This document shows positions 9,074-56,862 of a DNA stretch of 64,000 nt, piece after piece (position 1 is the stretch's first letter; every line of letters starts with the position of its first letter). The translations under genes were made by a program, and so were the position numbers. The DNA is taken from the NCBI RefSeq assembly GCF_036030735.1, contig NZ_CP107928.1:3782001-3846000 (forward strand), given 5' to 3'. The notes below the pieces were generated by a model, which was not told the DNA's origin, made no database searches, and saw only the letters and a list, made by a program, of their open reading frames with translations. The stretch comes from Streptomyces sp. NBC_00425. Lineage in GTDB: Bacteria > Actinomycetota > Actinomycetes > Streptomycetales > Streptomycetaceae.

Positions 9074-9399
9074 CGGGAAGTGGCCTTCCTCGGTGGTCAG
9101 GCCCTCGCACTGGGATTGCCGTCCCGGCGGGGGCCGTCGCATGTCTGGGGTGGAGGTGCAGCACTGTGGCTCTGCGCTGCGTTGCGCTGAGCGTAAGGCA
9201 GGCAACCCGTCACGAATCCAGTCGAGTTGGGCATATTCACTCGCGGGAGTGAGTTTGACCGGCGGGCGGGAGGGGTGGGGCTTGGTCGGGTTCTTTCGCC
9301 GCCGTCGTGGGTCTTTGGAATGAGCGCCCCTTGCCCCGAAGCTCGAGAATCCGGGTTCCGGTGACGGACGCACATCGCCTCGTCCAGGGCTTGCGGCGG
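9074..9399. other. Intergenic region, 326 bp
   Basis: No credible gene on either strand. It should contain the promoter of the winged-helix gene to its left. A moderately AT-rich stretch (9215-9250) includes the inverted repeat listed separately. Confidence 0.6.
9237..9252. promoter_or_regulatory. Inverted repeat TCACTC-GCGG-GAGTGA, candidate operator
   Basis: Perfect 6-bp arms around a 4-bp centre in an AT-richer spot about 165 bp upstream of the winged-helix regulator. The size fits a dimeric regulator site. Which protein binds it is inference; the divergence from terminator structure (short stem, no T-run) favours an operator. Confidence 0.4.
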
Positions 9400-49789: not shown

Positions 49790-50371
49790 ATGACCGCACT
49801 GCCCGACTGGATGCGCCCACCGCGTGCGGAAGGCTGGTTCGCGGAGGACCTGGACCGCCTCCCCGAGGCGCCACGCCACACCGAGCTCATCGACGGAGCC
49901 CTCGTCTTCATGATGTCGCCGCAGCGAGCCTGGCACGGCCGCCTCGTCACGGCCCTGACCACCACGCTCATGGCACAGGCACCGCCCGGCGTCGAGGTCG
50001 AGCGGGAGATGACGATCCGCCTCGATGCCCGAAACCGCCCCGAGCCGGACCTCTTGCTGACGAACCTGCCCTACGACCCCGACCGCACCTGGTGCGCCCC
50101 GGAGGACGTGAAACTCGTCATCGAGGTCGTCTCACCCGAGTCCGCGCACCGGGACCGCACGGTCAAGCTCCGCAAGTACGCGGAAGCGGGCATCGCGCAC
50201 TACTGGTGCATCGAGGACGAGGACGGGGATCCCGTCGTCCACGTCTACGAACTCGACGAGCCGACCGGTTCCTACGCGCCGGCGGGCATCTTCCGGGGCT
50301 CCCTCACACGACCGGTGCCCTTCGAGATCAGCCTCGACCTCGACAAGCTCACCCCGCCCCGGCGCACCTGA
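49790..50371 (+). CDS. Uma2-family PD-(D/E)XK endonuclease-like protein
   Basis: 193 residues. The Uma2 core is complete: ELIDGALVFM, RPEPDLLL (Asp ligand), LVIEVVSPES (Glu), and KLRKYAEAGIAHYW. The family is abundant in Streptomyces and cyanobacteria; nuclease activity is predicted from fold but biological roles are mostly unknown. It is convergent with the signal-peptidase gene, 13 bp apart. Confidence 0.92.
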   Translation: MTALPDWMRPPRAEGWFAEDLDRLPEAPRHTELIDGALVFMMSPQRAWHGRLVTALTTTLMAQAPPGVEVEREMTIRLDARNRPEPDLLLTNLPYDPDRTWCAPEDVKLVIEVVSPESAHRDRTVKLRKYAEAGIAHYWCIEDEDGDPVVHVYELDEPTGSYAPAGIFRGSLTRPVPFEISLDLDKLTPPRRT

Positions 50372-50384
50372 CCAGGTGTCCTGA

Positions 50385-50858
50385 CTAGGTGTGTTGAGCC
50401 GCGGCGGCCCGCAGGCGGAACAGGACGGTTCCGACGAGCTTGTCCTCGGGGCAGTAGCCCAGCTGCTTGGAGTCCCGGGAGCCCGGCTGCTCGCCCAGGA
50501 GGACGAGCATCCCCGGCGGCACGTGCGTGCCGGGGCACCGGCCGGCCCAGCGCGGCACGGGCTCTCCGGCGACGGCCACGATGCGTTTGACGTACCACGC
50601 GTCGCGCAGGTCCGGCGCCGGGCCCGTGACGGTGTGCCAGCCGTGCTCGGGATGGGGTGCGACGACGACGGCCACCCGGCCCGTGGCGACCCGGCGTCTG
50701 CCGCGGAGCAGCAGGAGCCGGTCGCCGGGCATGAGGGTCGGCGACATGCTGTACCCGCGGACGGTCACGGCCACCAGCCTCCCACGCGCCAGGAACAGGG
50801 CCGCGGCGAGGACGAGGAGCGCCGCCGTGGCGAGGAGCAGCGGGGCCGCCGCCGTCAC
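50385..50858 (-). CDS. S26 family signal peptidase of the cysteine-rich peptide cluster
   Basis: 157 residues from a GTG start that overlaps the exporter stop (GTGA). One N-terminal membrane helix (~5-24) is followed by the catalytic domain outside the cell. The serine motif RGYSMSPTLMPGD (S37), the lysine motif YVKRIVAVAGE (K91) and the C-terminal box GSRDSKQLG are intact, so it should be active. It is short, of the mitochondrial IMP/plasmid TraF kind rather than full-length SipS/LepB. Encoded with an exporter and precursor whose leader ends in an AxA motif, it probably removes that leader after export (inference). Confidence 0.88.
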   Translation of the reverse strand: MTAAAPLLLATAALLVLAAALFLARGRLVAVTVRGYSMSPTLMPGDRLLLLRGRRRVATGRVAVVVAPHPEHGWHTVTGPAPDLRDAWYVKRIVAVAGEPVPRWAGRCPGTHVPPGMLVLLGEQPGSRDSKQLGYCPEDKLVGTVLFRLRAAAAQHT

Positions 50859-52687
50859 CGGACGGTCTCCTCGTAGCCCCGGGCCTGCGTGGTGAAGAGC
50901 TCGGCATAGGCGCCCTGAGCGGTCATGAGCTGTTCATGGGTGCCCGCCTCCCGCACGGTTCCGTCGGCGATGACGACGATGGCGTCCGCGGCGCGGACGG
51001 TGCCCAGACGGTGGGAGACGAGGATGCTCGTCGCGCCCTGACGGAGCGAGGTGAGACGGTCGTGGACGTGACGTTCGGCGACCGCGTCGAGGCCGGTGCC
51101 GGGTTCGTCGAGGATCATGAGATCGCGTTCGGAGCGCATCAGGGCCCGGGCGAGCGCGAGGCGCTGCCACTGGCCGCCCGACAACTGGACGCCGGGGCTG
51201 CTGTCTTCCGTGTCGTCGGGGAAGAACATCCGGCTGAGCATGGTGTCGTACCCGTGGGGGAGGCGGGTGAGGGCGGTGTGGATGTCCGCGTCGTCGGCGG
51301 CGGCACGGATGCGCCCGTGGTCGTGGAGGGAGCCGAGGTCGCCCAGGCCGATGTTCTCGCCGGCGGTGAGGTCGTACTCCATCGGGTCCTGGAAGACGAC
51401 GCTGACCCGCTCGCGCAGCTGGTCAGCGGGGAAGTCCCTGATGTCGATGCCGTCCCAGCGGATGCTGCCCCGCTGCGGGTCGTAGAGGCGGCACAGCAGT
51501 TTGACGAGGGTGCTCTTGCCGGCCCCGTTGAGTCCGACGACGGCCAGGCTGGTGCCGTGCGGGACGAACAGGCTGATTCCGCGGAGGACCCACGGTCCGT
51601 CGTCGCTGTAGCGGAACCAGACGTCCCGGAGTTCGAGGCCCTGGCTCAGGGGCGGCGGGGCGATCGGGGCGGCCGGGACGGGGAGGTCGTCGCGGACCTG
51701 GACGACATGCAGGTAGTGGCTGAACATCAGGGCCGTCTGGTGGCTCTGGGCGATGCACCCCACGAGGCTGATGAGTGCCGTCTGCATGCCGGCGAGGGCC
51801 GCCACGAGGAGGGACACGTCACCGGCGGTGAGGACGTGGACGGCCGCCTGGTGCACGCCCCAGACGAGTGCGGCGGTGGAGACTCCGGCTCCGAGGACGG
51901 CGAGGGCCGTCTCGTAGGTGACGAGGCGTCGGTCGAGACGTTCCTCCTGCCGGTTGATGCTGTCGAGGTCGGTGCGCATGCGCTGCGCGAAGTAGCCGCC
52001 GAGGCCGTAGAGGCGGATCTCCTTCGCCGCTTGGGAGTCCGTGAGGAGCCCTCGGTAGAAGATCTGACGGCGGGCGAGGTTGCTGGTGCGCCAGAACATG
52101 TCGGCGCGATGCCGGCTGTTGGCCAGATGCGCGAACAGGGCCGGCACGGCCGCGACGACGAGGACGGCGGCCAGGGTGGGGCTGACGAGCAGGAGACTCG
52201 TCAGGAAACCCGCCAGGGTGAGAACGCTCTGGACGCCCTGGAAGGTCGCGCCGACCAGTCGTTCGGCCCCCTGCGCACTCTGGACGGCGAGTTGGACGCG
52301 GTCGTGGAAGGCGGGCTGCTCGAGCTTCGACAGACCGCTGAGCCGGTTGACGGCCGTGAGCAGCTCGCTCTGCGCCCGGGTGGAGGTGGCGCGGCGGATG
52401 CGGCCGTCGGCGTAGGAGGAGACGGCCGAGGCTGCGGCGAGGAGGACCGTGAGCAGACCGATGCCGGCCGCCGCCCAGTTGAGGTCCGAGGCGCGGAACC
52501 CCTCCGCGGTGAGGCTGTCGACCACGTACTTGAGCAGCCAGGAAGCCGCCACGGGGGCTGCGCCCGCGATGACGACGGTGGCGACGCGGGCGGCGAGGGC
52601 CCCGGGGCAGGACCGCACCGTGAGGGCGAGGACGGCGCTGAGGCCCCGCACGAAATCGACGGGGCGGGAGGCGGACCGCCCGCTCAT
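50855..52687 (-). CDS. ABC transporter, fused permease-ATPase (peptide exporter)
   Basis: 610 residues. The membrane domain has about six helices (~20-320); the linker FYRGLLTDSQAAKEIRLYGLG resembles exporters of class III lanthipeptide (AmfA/RamA) systems. The ATPase has Walker A GLNGAGKST, signature LSGGQWQR and Walker B LMILDEPGTGLD. No N-terminal C39 peptidase domain is present, so it cannot cleave a leader itself. The start overlaps the thioredoxin-like gene stop (ATGA), and its own stop overlaps the signal-peptidase start. Proposed role: export of the cysteine-rich peptide. Confidence 0.92.
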   Translation of the reverse strand: MSGRSASRPVDFVRGLSAVLALTVRSCPGALAARVATVVIAGAAPVAASWLLKYVVDSLTAEGFRASDLNWAAAGIGLLTVLLAAASAVSSYADGRIRRATSTRAQSELLTAVNRLSGLSKLEQPAFHDRVQLAVQSAQGAERLVGATFQGVQSVLTLAGFLTSLLLVSPTLAAVLVVAAVPALFAHLANSRHRADMFWRTSNLARRQIFYRGLLTDSQAAKEIRLYGLGGYFAQRMRTDLDSINRQEERLDRRLVTYETALAVLGAGVSTAALVWGVHQAAVHVLTAGDVSLLVAALAGMQTALISLVGCIAQSHQTALMFSHYLHVVQVRDDLPVPAAPIAPPPLSQGLELRDVWFRYSDDGPWVLRGISLFVPHGTSLAVVGLNGAGKSTLVKLLCRLYDPQRGSIRWDGIDIRDFPADQLRERVSVVFQDPMEYDLTAGENIGLGDLGSLHDHGRIRAAADDADIHTALTRLPHGYDTMLSRMFFPDDTEDSSPGVQLSGGQWQRLALARALMRSERDLMILDEPGTGLDAVAERHVHDRLTSLRQGATSILVSHRLGTVRAADAIVVIADGTVREAGTHEQLMTAQGAYAELFTTQARGYEETVR

Positions 52688-53235
52688 GCGGTGAGGAGGT
52701 CGAGCGCGGGCAGGGAGCCTTGGCCGATGCCCGTCCCGGTGACGGTCCCGTCGGCGTCGAGGAGGACGAACGAGGGGTGGTGGCGGACGCCGAAGACACC
52801 GGCGGCGGGTCCGTTCGGCGGTTCGGTGGCGGTGAGTTCGGTGAACGGGCCGACCGCTTCGAGCAGGGGGCCGGCTTCGGCGGGCGGCCCGCTGACGACG
52901 GCGACGAGACGGGCGCCCGACGGGGTGTTCGCCTCGGCCCAGCGTTGGATTCCGGGAAGGCTTTCCCTGGTGGGCCCGCAGTCGGGGCGGAGGAAACAGA
53001 TGAGGGCGGGGTGGCCGGCCAGGGTGGCGGCGCTGACTTCGCCCCCGGCGGTGTGCAGGGTGAACGCGGGGGCGCGGTCGCCCTCCTGGACGGCGAGGGC
53101 CGGCGGCCCCGGGGCTGCGGCGGCCGGGGCGGGGGCCATCATGCTGCGCCAGCGTTTGCTGACCGCGACGGTCAGGAGGGCGTTGACGAGGGTGACCGCG
53201 GCGAGAAGGGCGAGGCCGGCGATGGCGTAATTCAC
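52684..53235 (-). CDS. Membrane-anchored thioredoxin-fold protein lacking CxxC (TlpA/MauD-like)
   Basis: 183 residues from a GTG start. One N-terminal helix (~3-24), an Ala/Pro linker, then a redoxin domain (DRAPAFTLHTAGG onward). The active-site position reads RPDCGPTRE: the first cysteine is kept but the second is replaced by Thr. A further Cys lies six residues earlier (ICFLRPDC). It may act as a mixed-disulfide isomerase or chaperone rather than an oxidase. Coupled by ATGA overlap to the ABC exporter. The partner with a full CPSC motif is encoded at 54160-54693. Confidence 0.85.
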   Translation of the reverse strand: MNYAIAGLALLAAVTLVNALLTVAVSKRWRSMMAPAPAAAAPGPPALAVQEGDRAPAFTLHTAGGEVSAATLAGHPALICFLRPDCGPTRESLPGIQRWAEANTPSGARLVAVVSGPPAEAGPLLEAVGPFTELTATEPPNGPAAGVFGVRHHPSFVLLDADGTVTGTGIGQGSLPALDLLTA

Positions 53236-53250
53236 TCTGTGATCGTCCTT

Positions 53251-53787
53251 TCAGCGTTGGCCGGTGCGGGCGGCGGAGAAGAACAAGGCGAGGTCGTCGG
53301 TGAAGACGGCGAGCGTGGTGAGATAGCCGGCGACCGCGACGGCGAGCACCAGTGCCGGCCCGTCGTAGGGGGCGCCGGCGCCCTGGGTGAGGGCGATGAC
53401 GCCGCCGAGGAGCGCGAGCACCGTCAGGGCGGCGTTCCGTGCGACGTGCCAGGGGCCCATGGGCACGGTGGTCCTGCTGCCGAAGCAGGGGCAGCCGGCC
53501 GGGCTGCGACGCCGCATGGTGGTGACGGCGACGACGCTGAACGCGGCGCACAGGGCGGCGGCGACGGCCAGCCCCGCGGTGAGCGTCCGGGGCACGGCGA
53601 GGAGCACGGCGGCGAGGAGTTCGGCCGCGGGCACCAGGACGGCCAGGGCCGGCCGGGCGGCGGCGGGCACGCGCGTGAGGTCGCCCAGCGCCGTGGCGAA
53701 CCGGCGGCGGTCGCGCAGCTTGGCGAGGCCGGCCACGGCCAGCACGCAGATCAGGGTCAGGCGGCAGACGAGCAGCAGGTCGGACAA
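53251..53787 (-). CDS. MauE/DoxX-like redox membrane protein
   Basis: 178 residues if started at TTG 53787 (GGAG six bases upstream); other starts are possible. It has four to five membrane helices: CRLTLICVLAVAGLAKLRDR at the beginning and the MauE-type cysteine pair in AGCPCFG in the middle. MauE together with MauD is needed for disulfide formation in the cysteine-rich small subunit of methylamine dehydrogenase. Here no methylamine dehydrogenase gene is present; the nearest cysteine-rich product is the peptide encoded 120 bp upstream. It probably supplies oxidising equivalents to the thioredoxin-like partners. Confidence 0.8.
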   Translation of the reverse strand: MSDLLLVCRLTLICVLAVAGLAKLRDRRRFATALGDLTRVPAAARPALAVLVPAAELLAAVLLAVPRTLTAGLAVAAALCAAFSVVAVTTMRRRSPAGCPCFGSRTTVPMGPWHVARNAALTVLALLGGVIALTQGAGAPYDGPALVLAVAVAGYLTTLAVFTDDLALFFSAARTGQR

Positions 53788-53829
53788 GGGTGACTCCGGA
53801 GAGAGGGATGCTGGGCCGGCGTGGGCACG

Positions 53830-53862
53830 GGGCGGGCACAGGGCGGGCACAGGGCGGGCACA
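53830..53862. repeat. Three perfect tandem copies of GGGCGGGCACA
   Basis: Eleven-base unit repeated head to tail (53830, 53841, 53852), between the precursor-gene hairpin and the MauE-like start. It reads TGTGCCCGCCC on the transcribed-sense strand. It may be a leader element or simply slippage; no function can be assigned. Confidence 0.85.
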
Positions 53863-53870
53863 GGATGAGC

Positions 53871-53900
53871 TCGGGGCGGGCCGCACGCGGCCCGCCCCGA
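53871..53900 (-). terminator. Perfect hairpin just after the precursor peptide gene (partial terminator/attenuator)
   Basis: Arms of 14 bp (TCGGGGCGGGCCGC and its complement) with a 2-base gap, starting 6 bp after the peptide stop. There is no T-run, so incomplete termination or message stabilisation is likely. That would give more precursor than downstream enzymes, as in many peptide clusters. Confidence 0.8.
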
Positions 53901-53906
53901 GGTGGT

Positions 53907-54086
53907 TCAGCAGTAGTCCCAGCTTCCGCAGCTGATCTTGCAGGCGCCGGTGTAACAGCAGCGACGGCAGCGCTGGGCGCTGGTGCTCCACTCGGTGTAG
54001 CAGTCCGGCGGGCAGCCCGCGTCCGCCACGGCCTTGGGCAGAATCCGCTCGATCAGACGGCCCGCACCGGCCTTCAGTGTGCGCAT
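53907..54086 (-). CDS. Cysteine-rich precursor peptide, 59 residues (candidate disulfide-rich secreted peptide)
   Basis: A small gene with a strong ribosome site (AGGAAGAGGAG, five bases before ATG 54086). The protein has a 23-24-residue basic, amphipathic leader (MRTLKAGAGRLIERILPKAV, then ADAG) without a true hydrophobic signal core. The core has eight cysteines at 25, 29, 40, 43, 44, 49, 53 and 59, including CPPDC, CRRCC and a C-terminal WDYC. A-D-A at 21-23 is a signal-peptidase type AxA site directly before GC. No lanthipeptide synthetase, radical SAM or YcaO gene is nearby, while two thioredoxin-like proteins and a MauE-like protein are, so disulfides rather than thioethers are expected. 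Eight cysteines allow four disulfides. I recognise no named homologue. Confidence 0.85.
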   Translation of the reverse strand: MRTLKAGAGRLIERILPKAVADAGCPPDCYTEWSTSAQRCRRCCYTGACKISCGSWDYC

Positions 54087-54159
54087 GGTTCTCCTCTTCC
54101 TGTGGGGATGGGATGTGCGTACTCCGCGGTGCGGCCACGGTCCGCGGCCGCACCGGGGC

Positions 54160-54693
54160 TCAGGAGGCCGCCGGTACCGGTTCGCGGTCGGCGGCGGAAG
54201 GGGCGGCGACGACGCCGTCCCGGTAGCCGAGAATCGTGGGGAAGGCGGGGACCCGCAGGGCGCCGAACAGCGGTGCCGCCTCGGGCCCGGGCACCACCTC
54301 GTCCGCCGGCCCGACGAGTCGGGCGGTCAGACTGCTCTCGACGGCTTCGGCGCCGATCACCAGGGCCAGGACCCGGCCGCCCGCCGCACGGGTCCGGTCG
54401 GCCCGTTCGGCGAAGTCGGGGAGGGCGTCGGTGCAGGACGGGCAGTCGTGGGAGAAGACGCCCAGCAGCAGCTCCCCGGAGCGGAAGTCGTCCTGGGTCA
54501 GCGTCCGCCCGCTGAGCGCGGTGGCGGTGAAGTCCGGTAGTGCGTCCCCGGGTTGGGGCCCCTGGGCCGCGAAGTCGGCGCGTCGGCGGACGGCTTCGAG
54601 CTCCTGCCAGCGGCGCAGGATGACCAGGAGCAGGACGAGGTTGAGCAGGGCGACGGCTCCGACGAGCACGAGACCGGCTAGGACGTATGGCAC
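54160..54693 (-). CDS. Membrane-anchored thioredoxin-fold protein with CPSC active site (TlpA/MauD-like)
   Basis: 177 residues from GTG 54693 (AGGGGGT upstream); an upstream in-frame extension is non-coding. One membrane helix (~5-27, VLVGAVALLNLVLLLVILRR), then a redoxin domain (~50-170) with FSHDCPSCTDALPDF as active site and a cis-proline in VPAFPTI. First gene of the six-gene operon. It is the likely oxidoreductase acting on the cysteine-rich peptide with the MauE-like partner, since MauD and MauE work together in other bacteria. Confidence 0.85.
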   Translation of the reverse strand: MPYVLAGLVLVGAVALLNLVLLLVILRRWQELEAVRRRADFAAQGPQPGDALPDFTATALSGRTLTQDDFRSGELLLGVFSHDCPSCTDALPDFAERADRTRAAGGRVLALVIGAEAVESSLTARLVGPADEVVPGPEAAPLFGALRVPAFPTILGYRDGVVAAPSAADREPVPAAS

Positions 54694-54745
54694 GTTTCGA
54701 CCCCCTGGGCGGGTTGCACTTGGGAGCAGTGTGAGAGGTGGGGCC

Positions 54746-54774
54746 TGCCAGGAGGATGCCAAGACCTTGCCAGG
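54746..54774. promoter_or_regulatory. Three direct repeats TGCCAGG/TGCCAAG/TGCCAGG at exact 11-bp spacing (SARP-type box)
   Basis: Heptamers start at 54746, 54757 and 54768, each separated by four bases. Direct heptamers with 11-bp periodicity are the hallmark of SARP (ActII-ORF4/DnrI-type) binding sites. They lie in the 109-bp divergent promoter between the SARP gene and the peptide operon. A CACACT hexamer at 54728-54733 (minus strand) is a possible -10 for the operon. Direction of activation is inferred. Confidence 0.75.
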
Positions 54775-54802
54775 AACATGACGGGCTGAGCACCATGACC
54801 GC

Positions 54803-55600
54803 ATGCATGCCACGGGGTCATATTTTCGAGTGCTCGGCAGAGTTGAATGGACCGTCGACGGACACCCCAGGACCATCGGGCGCCGCCGCGAACGTCTGCT
54901 GCTGGGCTTACTTCTGCTGGAGATGGGCCGGCCGCTCCCGATGGACCGCCTGATCGATCTGCTGTCCGACGAGGACGAACGACCGCGGTCCCGGGCCGAC
55001 CTGTATGTGAACGTCTGCCGGCTGCGGGCGAGTCTTCGCCGGGGCGGGGCCGACGGGTCGGTGCGGCTGGTGCGGAGCGGTTCGACGTACACGCTGACCG
55101 GCGATCCGCAGCTGGTGGACCTGCACCGCTTCACCCAGCTGGTGGACCGGGCCCAGCGGGGCACCGAGCCCCAGGAGGTGTCGCGCCTCGCCTCGTCCGC
55201 GCTGGCCGAGTGGCGGGGTGCGGTACTGGAGGACGTCGCGTCCGAGCGGACCCGCCGAGGTGTCGCCACCGCCTTCGACGAGCTGCTGATCTCGGCGCAA
55301 CTGCTGCGTGTCGCGGCGGAGTTCAAGCTGCGCAACTACTCGTCGCTCGCCGCGGAGCTCGCGCGGCTCACCGCGGAGCATCCCGAGCACGAGATGCTCC
55401 TGGCCTTCCGCGCCGCCACGCTCTACGAATGCGGCCGCCGCGCGGACGCGCTGCGCGTGCTGTCCTCGGCGCGAGCGCGCATGGCCGCGCGGCTGGGGCT
55501 GGACCTGAGCCGCGGGCTCCAGGACCTGCGCGGGGCGATCCTGCGGGACGATCCCGTGGACCACCACATCTTCCGCTGCGGCGCCCTGGGCGCCGCCTGA
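54803..55600 (+). CDS. SARP-family pathway regulator (OmpR-like DNA-binding domain plus BTAD)
   Basis: 265 residues, the size of small SARPs such as ActII-ORF4. Residues ~8-100 form the OmpR-type winged helix (FRVLGRVEW...YVNVCRLRASLRR); residues ~105-255 are the bacterial transcriptional activation domain (BTAD). SARPs switch on adjacent secondary-metabolite genes. Divergent orientation and the repeats at 54746-54774 indicate that it controls the peptide operon, probably also itself. Confidence 0.92.
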   Translation: MHATGSYFRVLGRVEWTVDGHPRTIGRRRERLLLGLLLLEMGRPLPMDRLIDLLSDEDERPRSRADLYVNVCRLRASLRRGGADGSVRLVRSGSTYTLTGDPQLVDLHRFTQLVDRAQRGTEPQEVSRLASSALAEWRGAVLEDVASERTRRGVATAFDELLISAQLLRVAAEFKLRNYSSLAAELARLTAEHPEHEMLLAFRAATLYECGRRADALRVLSSARARMAARLGLDLSRGLQDLRGAILRDDPVDHHIFRCGALGAA

Positions 55601-55695
55601 CGCGTCGGCCGCGGAACGTCCACCACGACGCTCCCACCGTCGAAGAGGCGCCTCCCGACTAGTGCATCCCGCACAGATCCACCACGGGATCGACG

Positions 55696-55729
55696 AAGGG
55701 GTCGGGCTCCCACGAGCCCGACCCCTTCC
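55696..55729. terminator. Strong bidirectional hairpin terminator
   Basis: Perfect 15-bp arms (GAAGGGGTCGGGCTC and its complement) with a 4-base loop, between the convergent SARP and ychF genes. It marks the right boundary of the peptide cluster. Confidence 0.85.
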
Positions 55730-55773
55730 GACCTGCGTGCCCACCACATCGGCGGGACGTCGTCAGCCACCGC

Positions 55774-56862
<1,089 letters not shown>

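Follow-up and report, generated by a model that had tools for sequence, protein, structure and literature searches.

Methylamine dehydrogenase is matured by MauE and MauD, a membrane protein and a membrane-anchored redoxin. The same pairing is found in a six-gene operon of Streptomyces sp. NBC_00425, the subject of this study, which lies in a stretch of 64,000 nucleotides (contig NZ_CP107928.1, positions 3,782,001 to 3,846,000 of the forward strand; "the window" below). The genome is a single contig of 9.8 Mb. As in the methylamine dehydrogenase system, a membrane MauE and an anchored redoxin stand beside a disulfide-rich substrate. The window operon differs in that its proteins include no methylamine dehydrogenase subunits (Pfam, in a search confined to the operon), and in that the substrate carries a leader and is served by an exporter and a peptidase of its own. 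We put at roughly 0.7 the probability that the operon encodes a self-contained pathway, in which an eight-cysteine precursor would be oxidized by a MauE/redoxin relay, trimmed by a dedicated S26 peptidase at an Ala-x-Ala (AxA) site and exported by a dedicated ATP-binding cassette (ABC) protein.

Sublancin and the pediocin-like bacteriocins are disulfide peptides made with dedicated thiol oxidoreductases and exported by ABC proteins; they have double-glycine leaders and C39 exporters. The window operon differs from these in its AxA leader and in the presence of an S26 peptidase, and the C39 domain (PF03412) is absent among the 10 Pfam families listed for the ABC protein. With a leader ending in AxA and no C39 domain listed, the locus falls outside the double-glycine/C39 class (peptidase-containing ABC transporters).

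Peptide families with MauE were also proposed by the decRiPPter study, of which Kloosterman is reportedly the first author. In the portions of that paper available here, 42 candidate families of ribosomally synthesized and post-translationally modified peptides (RiPPs) are described from 1,295 Streptomyces genomes, three of them with mauE and one also with mauD (PLoS Biol 2020; PMC7794033). Precursors of the mauE families have at least eight cysteines, and the strict filter demanded a transporter, a peptidase and a regulator; the authors suggest a role of MauE/MauD in precursor modification, and the same portions tell of no experiment on those families (PMC7794033). The window operon fits this description, having a MauE, a precursor with at least eight cysteines, a transporter, a peptidase and a regulator. 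Because of the filter, an overlap with the family of the window is likely, as far as a comparison by description goes. The main text, in the portions available, names no S26 peptidase, Streptomyces antibiotic regulatory protein (SARP) or thioredoxin for the mauE families (PMC7794033), and the likeness to the window is by description alone. A literature search covering few subscription journals found no follow-up on these families, and no example of an isolated peptide of this kind was found. The first-pass annotation of the window had called the system possibly undescribed. This was too strong, since MauE candidate families were listed in 2020 (PMC7794033, in the portions available), and it holds to the extent that no characterization was found. 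Judged from sequence, the window operon is a member of a large, coherent and uncharacterized family of oxidative-folding peptides (RiPP-like disulfide peptides), not something unheard of.

The TMcin system, like that of the window, involves a small peptide that loses its leader at the membrane, along with an ABC exporter and a dedicated thiol oxidoreductase, TmcD (PMC13252029, available in part). Unlike the window system, it has a transmembrane substrate with one disulfide, a DsbA-like TmcD and an S2P-type protease, and MauE and DoxX are unmentioned in the main text as far as available (PMC13252029).

Operon layout and gene products

The six operon genes and the divergent SARP gene that had been called from the sequence are all present, with Pfam backing:

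54803..55600, plus strand: SARP regulator with a BTAD/SARP domain (PF03704, 1.6e-24)
54160..54693, minus strand: Trx1, membrane-anchored redoxin with CPSC (PF00578, 2.2e-8)
53907..54086, minus strand: precursor peptide of 59 amino acids with 8 Cys; leader M1-A23, core G24-C59
53251..53787, minus strand: MauE, multi-helix membrane protein with a C-x-C-F-G loop (PF07291, 2.7e-26)
52684..53235, minus strand: Trx2, membrane-anchored redoxin with single-Cys CGPT (PF00578, 3e-8)
50855..52687, minus strand: ABC exporter, MsbA-like half-transporter (PF00005, 1.3e-29)
50385..50858, minus strand: S26 peptidase with one N-terminal helix and a Ser/Lys catalytic pair (PF10502, 3.3e-16)

The operon is read in the order Trx1, precursor, MauE, Trx2, ABC and S26. 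The Trx2/ABC and ABC/S26 pairs overlap by 4 bases each, and the gaps flanking the precursor gene are 73 and about 119 bases when MauE is taken from its inferred TTG. This start, TTG 53787 giving 178 amino acids, is probably correct according to alignment and the ribosome site. The S26 protein passes the cut-off of TIGR02227 (signal peptidase I) with 53.6 bits against 47. Trx2 stays below the cut-off of the MauD equivalog TIGR02661 (15.5 of 188.6 bits), and for Trx1 this model is not among the matches listed. No lanthipeptide, YcaO, radical-SAM or lasso enzyme is found among the 8 proteins scanned with Pfam and NCBIfam (in the latter, for the ABC protein, among the best 25 of 190 matches). A kept leader, a variable core and co-encoded enzymes and exporter are present, as in a RiPP.

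Precursors, partner genes and cysteines

The 59-amino-acid frame is, by its conservation, a real gene. By tblastn, matches with 75-90% identity occur in eight named genomes of Streptomyces, Embleya and Yinghuangia; the protein database has seven clusters of the precursor at 75-93%. The order Trx1-peptide-MauE-Trx2-ABC-S26 is kept in 8/8 named loci, with SARP in 5/8. Among 12 window-type copies the ratio of nonsynonymous to synonymous substitution rates (dN/dS) is 0.09 for the leader and 0.45 for the core (65 and 66 usable pairs of 66). The Cys-rich frame pointed out in the first-pass annotation is thus borne out by relatives, operon order and low dN/dS. The window-type leader MRTLKAGAGRLIERILPKAxAxA is nearly invariant. 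In the window it ends with A21-D22-A23, preceded by a second AxA at A19-V20-A21. The mature 36-mer G24-C59 with four disulfides has a predicted mass of 4050.52 Da.

An AlphaFold2 model of the precursor (15 sequences; mean pLDDT, the predicted local distance difference test, of 69) has a disordered leader and a three-stranded core, with pLDDT of 84-90 from residue 31 and 67 for residues 21-30. A fold search with the core model gave no clear PDB relative, and a PDB sequence search with the precursor profile gave 0 matches at E 1. Pfam and NCBIfam scans of 39 precursors returned single chance-level matches only (best E 0.029). Two precursor copies occur in tandem in one genome (L008). An extra precursor of the same leader type with 8 Cys lies outside any cluster in Yinghuangia soli (L025, 8854-9039), and may be matured by the cluster elsewhere in that genome. 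Another peptide match, in L016/L024 (8.3e-5), runs antisense to an ABC gene and has no such operon around it; it was dropped.

A search with the ABC protein through 394 genomes of the class gave 51 hits in 29 of them (E up to 1e-105), and all 51 neighbourhoods were examined. Scoring within 6 kb used protein hidden Markov models (HMMs) and a leader HMM built from 20 segments, with seeds chosen by eye. The leader threshold of 12 was set on this first set and left unchanged for the second. Since no more than the 3 best ABC candidates of a genome entered the scoring, copy numbers are lower bounds. Within the genus, an ABC gene of this type is found in 63 of 392 genomes (78 hits), about one in six of the Streptomyces sampled. 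The second set comprises 73 hits new to the analysis, or 71 after removal of two duplicates (L129, equal to L009, and L131, a second copy of L130). None of its precursors is identical to a first-set precursor, though some are related.

In the first set, 49 of the 51 loci have MauE, 50 a redoxin, 46 S26, 31 SARP and 43 a leader-type precursor; MauE, redoxin, S26 and precursor all occur together in 41. In the second set the numbers among 71 are 65 (MauE), 67 (redoxin), 67 (S26), 24 (SARP) and 54 (precursor). The check proposed in the first-pass annotation, co-occurrence with small Cys-rich frames in other genomes, therefore came out at 43/51 and 54/71. Among the first-set exceptions, L066 is cut by the contig start, L059 has a partial MauE match only and L086 is without redoxin.

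Precursors of the family share the leader LGDRLLxxLVPxxxAxA, and their cores diverge. As a control for the leader HMM, 1039 small open reading frames (ORFs) in 139,980 bases (the window plus unrelated loci) were scored. Only the window precursor reached 12 or more, at 36.2 (its own leader is among the 20 seeds), and the next best domain score was 5.5. The loci examined hold 117 distinct precursors, which form 50 groups at 50% identity.

Even cysteine counts run through this family. The first-set precursors, taken from the 51 loci plus L002-L009, L023 and L025, are 61 distinct sequences, and all 61 have an even count, as do 55/56 of the second set and 116/117 overall. Parity was not used for selection. 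Precursors have 4 Cys in 3 cases, 6 in 56, 7 in 1, 8 in 41 and 10 in 16, so that 57/117 have at least 8, and one of the 50 identity groups contains an odd-Cys member. Database proteins are even in 20/21, the odd one being P0002. As background, an even count is seen in 331/507 of the remaining small ORFs of the first-set loci that have 4 or more Cys. Even counts suggest that all cysteines are paired, most simply as disulfides, which is a reading short of proof. First-set cores are 19% Cys and 16% aromatic residues, with net positive charge in 46/61. The predicted product is likely a secreted bioactive peptide; that charge and aromatics would suit an antimicrobial is a guess. The precursors of L087 and L073 stand apart in that a long stretch rich in Gly, Pro and Tyr separates their Cys-rich parts.

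The trimming site and its presumed enzyme are similarly kept. An AxA follows the leader proline and precedes the first Cys in 59/61 first-set and 54/56 second-set precursors (113/117 overall), and the S26 catalytic Ser and Lys are each present in 59/59 rows. The rows used for motifs (MauE 61, redoxin 76, S26 59) include L021, L022 and L026, the second copies of L007, L008 and L006, which the first-set charge counts given below omit. AxA and S26 are both missing in the Jiangella-type loci L100-L102, the core of which resembles the window core (CPPDC...RR.CC...C...C.SW...C):

L100, 8746-8931
L101, 8980-9165
L102, 4878-5066

S26 is missing too in L075 and L091, both without a found precursor. L100-L102 further encode another ABC ATPase together with a large protein; these two look like a MacB/FtsX pair and may serve immunity. 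None of the 117 leaders has a Sec-type hydrophobic core, defined by a 12-residue mean hydropathy of 2.0; the window leader reaches 0.62 and a TlpA-like lipoprotein 2.53.

The C-x-C of MauE is kept in 61/61 first-set and 65/65 second-set rows. In first-set redoxins, the first Cys is present in 76/76 rows and the second in 62/76. The remaining 14 rows are all Trx2 of window-type loci (11 distinct loci), with CGPT in 12 and CGPS in 2, i.e., with one of the two redox cysteines only, and each is accompanied by a Trx1 with CP[SA]C. CxxC is found in 69/70 second-set redoxins. In L100-L102 MauE and redoxin are fused in one polypeptide. The protein database contains eight fusions of this kind, of which at least two come from L100-L102, implying that the two functions are tied together. 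If MauE has five helices, as hydropathy suggests, the fused redoxin and the CxC loop would share one face of the membrane. An AlphaFold2 model of a natural fusion, made for docking, was too poor to use (mean pLDDT 62).

The genome of the window has two strong MauE matches (93.6 and 82.5 bits), both in such clusters, and three weak ones, two of them above the cut-off. The second cluster (L095, C1:261000-275000) has MauE, redoxin, ABC, S26 and a 73-amino-acid precursor with 6 Cys, and no SARP within 6 kb. In another genome the ABC gene occurs twice with equal scores, near both ends of a 9.1-Mb contig on opposite strands (L130 and L131), as expected if the cluster lies in terminal inverted repeats.

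Membrane face and rival explanations

Lysine and arginine (K/R) are unevenly distributed around the N-terminal helices of these proteins. In first-set redoxins the mean number of K/R is 0.17 ahead of the helix and 3.49 beyond it, the C-side being richer in 69/70 with one tie; for S26 the means are 0.33 and 2.89, with the C-side richer in 53/55 and one opposite. The second set gives 0.24 and 3.24 for redoxins (69/70 richer on the C-side, one tie) and 0.67 and 2.78 for S26 (44/51, with 3 opposite and 4 ties; 16 of the 67 S26 proteins showed no helix at threshold, hence 51 were scored). The MauE CxC loop has about 5 K/R against about 0.5 aspartate or glutamate, the first-set values being 5.1 and 0.6. 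A small control of five proteins from the same genome, four housekeeping signal peptidases and the TlpA-like lipoprotein, shows the reverse bias. By the positive-inside rule, K/R-rich flanks lie on the cytoplasmic side, and the charge bias therefore points to redoxins, MauE CxC loop and S26 sites on the cytoplasmic face. Given the pathway, we lean slightly towards this placement, on charge patterns only. The peptide would then be knotted and trimmed before export. The first-pass annotation had the disulfides installed outside the membrane, and the charge patterns of the redoxins, S26 and the MauE loop speak against this.

The passages of PMC12421883 and PMC2474590 available here hold nothing on MauE sidedness. 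A precedent for cytoplasmic disulfides is CyDisCo with inverted VKOR or DsbB, in which an inward-facing membrane oxidase makes them in Escherichia coli (PMC5471842, available in part). CyDisCo is engineered; the window pathway would be natural and substrate-specific. Put at its boldest, and at somewhat under even odds, the proposal is a natural inward-facing disulfide factory in the actinomycete cytoplasm, where MauE and redoxin would oxidize leader peptides inside, an inward S26 would clip them and the ABC protein would ship them. It would serve a whole class of oxidative-folding peptides, and the MauE/MauD of methylamine dehydrogenase would be a likely relative working in the same way.

Oxidation of exported proteins outside the membrane is the usual arrangement, and a model in which the unmodified precursor is exported first, with redoxins, MauE loop and S26 all acting outside, is possible though doubtful. 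The S26 protein passes the signal peptidase I cut-off, and such enzymes normally work outside; in TMcin, too, a dedicated DsbA-like protein carries out the oxidation at the membrane (PMC13252029, in the portions available). What this model leaves unexplained is the K/R bias around the redoxin and S26 helices, opposite to that of the housekeeping proteins, and the K/R-rich MauE loop. It is improbable that redoxins and MauE form instead a reducing or isomerizing branch of DsbD/CcdA type, keeping cysteines free or repairing wrong pairs, with oxidation left to occur spontaneously. Domains of the AhpC-TSA/redoxin type can act as reductants, and Trx2 is without a resolving cysteine, as a mixed-disulfide holder would be. 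Yet the CxC of MauE is kept without exception, no CcdA-type protein is found in the operon by Pfam, and for methylamine dehydrogenase a part of MauE in disulfide formation has been put forward, though solely as speculation (PMC7794033, in the portions available, citing van der Palen 1997). The high Cys content of the cores would also fit exported metal-binding or redox-buffer peptides that are not disulfide-bonded. This we hold very improbable: metal clusters do not need the nearly universal even counts, a conserved leader followed by strongly diverging cores is reminiscent of secreted weapons or signals, and the operon has oxidoreductases, not metal transporters.

Several observations weigh against the self-contained pathway or its inward placement. 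The cytoplasm is reducing, which speaks against oxidation inside, and the topology is drawn solely from charge statistics. At threshold, 8/51 and 17/71 loci are without a precursor. Among the eight, L100-L102 have a variant leader with an 8-Cys precursor, L093 has its precursor beside S26 just past 6 kb, L079 has a 53-amino-acid frame with 4 Cys instead of a leader-type precursor, and in L075, L086 and L091 none was found. Among the 17, six are on stretches shortened by contig ends and 11 are not; in L159, L195 and L200 precursor, MauE and redoxin are all missing. SARP was not found within 6 kb in 20/51 and 47/71 loci and is therefore not a core part. No immunity gene was recognized among the proteins scanned. 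Lastly, odd counts occur in L146 (9068-9346; 7 Cys) and in the window-type P0002 (7 Cys), where a short deletion takes out one Cys. These two may be decaying genes, dimers or peptides with a free thiol.

Regulation and significance

Outside the coding regions, the locus has the following features:

54746..54785, minus strand: SARP-type operator CCCGTCA-n4-CCTGGCA-n4-CTTGGCA-n4-CCTGGCA, 11-bp period, between SARP and Trx1
53870..53901, minus strand: hairpin with a 14-bp stem directly 3' of the precursor stop, absent from the first-pass annotation
55696..55727, no strand assigned: 13-bp hairpin without T-run, between SARP and the next, convergent gene

Heptamer direct repeats are a known SARP site (PMC10972967, available in part). 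For the best triplet score of the operator, the shuffles that do as well number 0 of 1000 for the window, 1 for L019 and 15 to 30 for the six other SARP-bearing loci, which have more degenerate copies; in L003 another register gave the best triplet. The operator block is alignable in 8/8 SARP-bearing loci (the window and seven relatives). Scores are at chance in L006-L008, which are without a SARP gene (863, 438 and 355 of 1000 shuffles). The window and seven relatives thus have 11-bp heptamer direct repeats in the promoter region, as would be expected of SARP-regulated operons.

The stem after the precursor is alignable in 11/11 window-type loci with 96.7% of cells paired, and 0/500 shuffles reach its pairing or covariation score. 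Two pairs are changed on both sides, a count equalled in 112/500 shuffles. The 90-nt stretch after the precursor has z of -1.1 to -3.4 across these 11 loci, and the stem is the lowest-energy fold in 10/11 (not in L009). Because z is below -2 in only 26/60 of the wider set, the hairpin is claimed for window-type loci only. In the tandem locus L008 it follows the last precursor copy only. It may be an attenuator or a message stabilizer.

A pattern scan of 50200-55900 found 0 promoters and 0 intrinsic terminators. The right-boundary terminator of the first-pass annotation is thus reduced to the 13-bp hairpin without T-run. The convergent gene beyond it we take to be YchF-like. At the other end, a Uma2-family protein (PF05685, 4.1e-27; 49790-50371, plus strand) is convergent with the S26 gene; one likewise adjoins the cluster in L019. 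The sole Rfam match at gathering score in the window is the small RNA scr4677 (RF02673, 170 bits; 9074-9343, minus strand), and there is no tRNA.

The self-contained pathway would run as follows. SARP would switch the operon on, the hairpin after the precursor would favour an excess of precursor message, and the amphipathic leader would dock the precursor to the machinery at the membrane. Dithiol Trx1 (CPSC) would take electrons from the peptide and pass them to the MauE CxC and on to quinone, with single-cysteine Trx2 holding or shuffling mixed disulfides. S26 would cut after A23, and the ABC protein would export the mature 36-mer. The earlier idea of private oxidation, trimming and export beside a SARP gains from co-occurrence, even Cys counts, AxA sites and the operator; its placement outside the membrane finds no support in the charge patterns.

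New in this analysis are the SARP-type operator, the conserved hairpin after the precursor and the charge patterns for sidedness. A one-paragraph hint from genome mining becomes a defined pathway with a library of 117 precursors. Disulfide-knotted peptides are stable drug scaffolds, and here they are encoded along with their own machinery for folding, which could be transferred to other hosts. Nothing in this picture is more surprising, or more open to test, than the predicted inward face. If the redox sites face the cytoplasm, the family would show how several disulfides per peptide can be made under the reducing conditions of that compartment, and the site of action of MauE and MauD in the maturation of methylamine dehydrogenase would again be in question.

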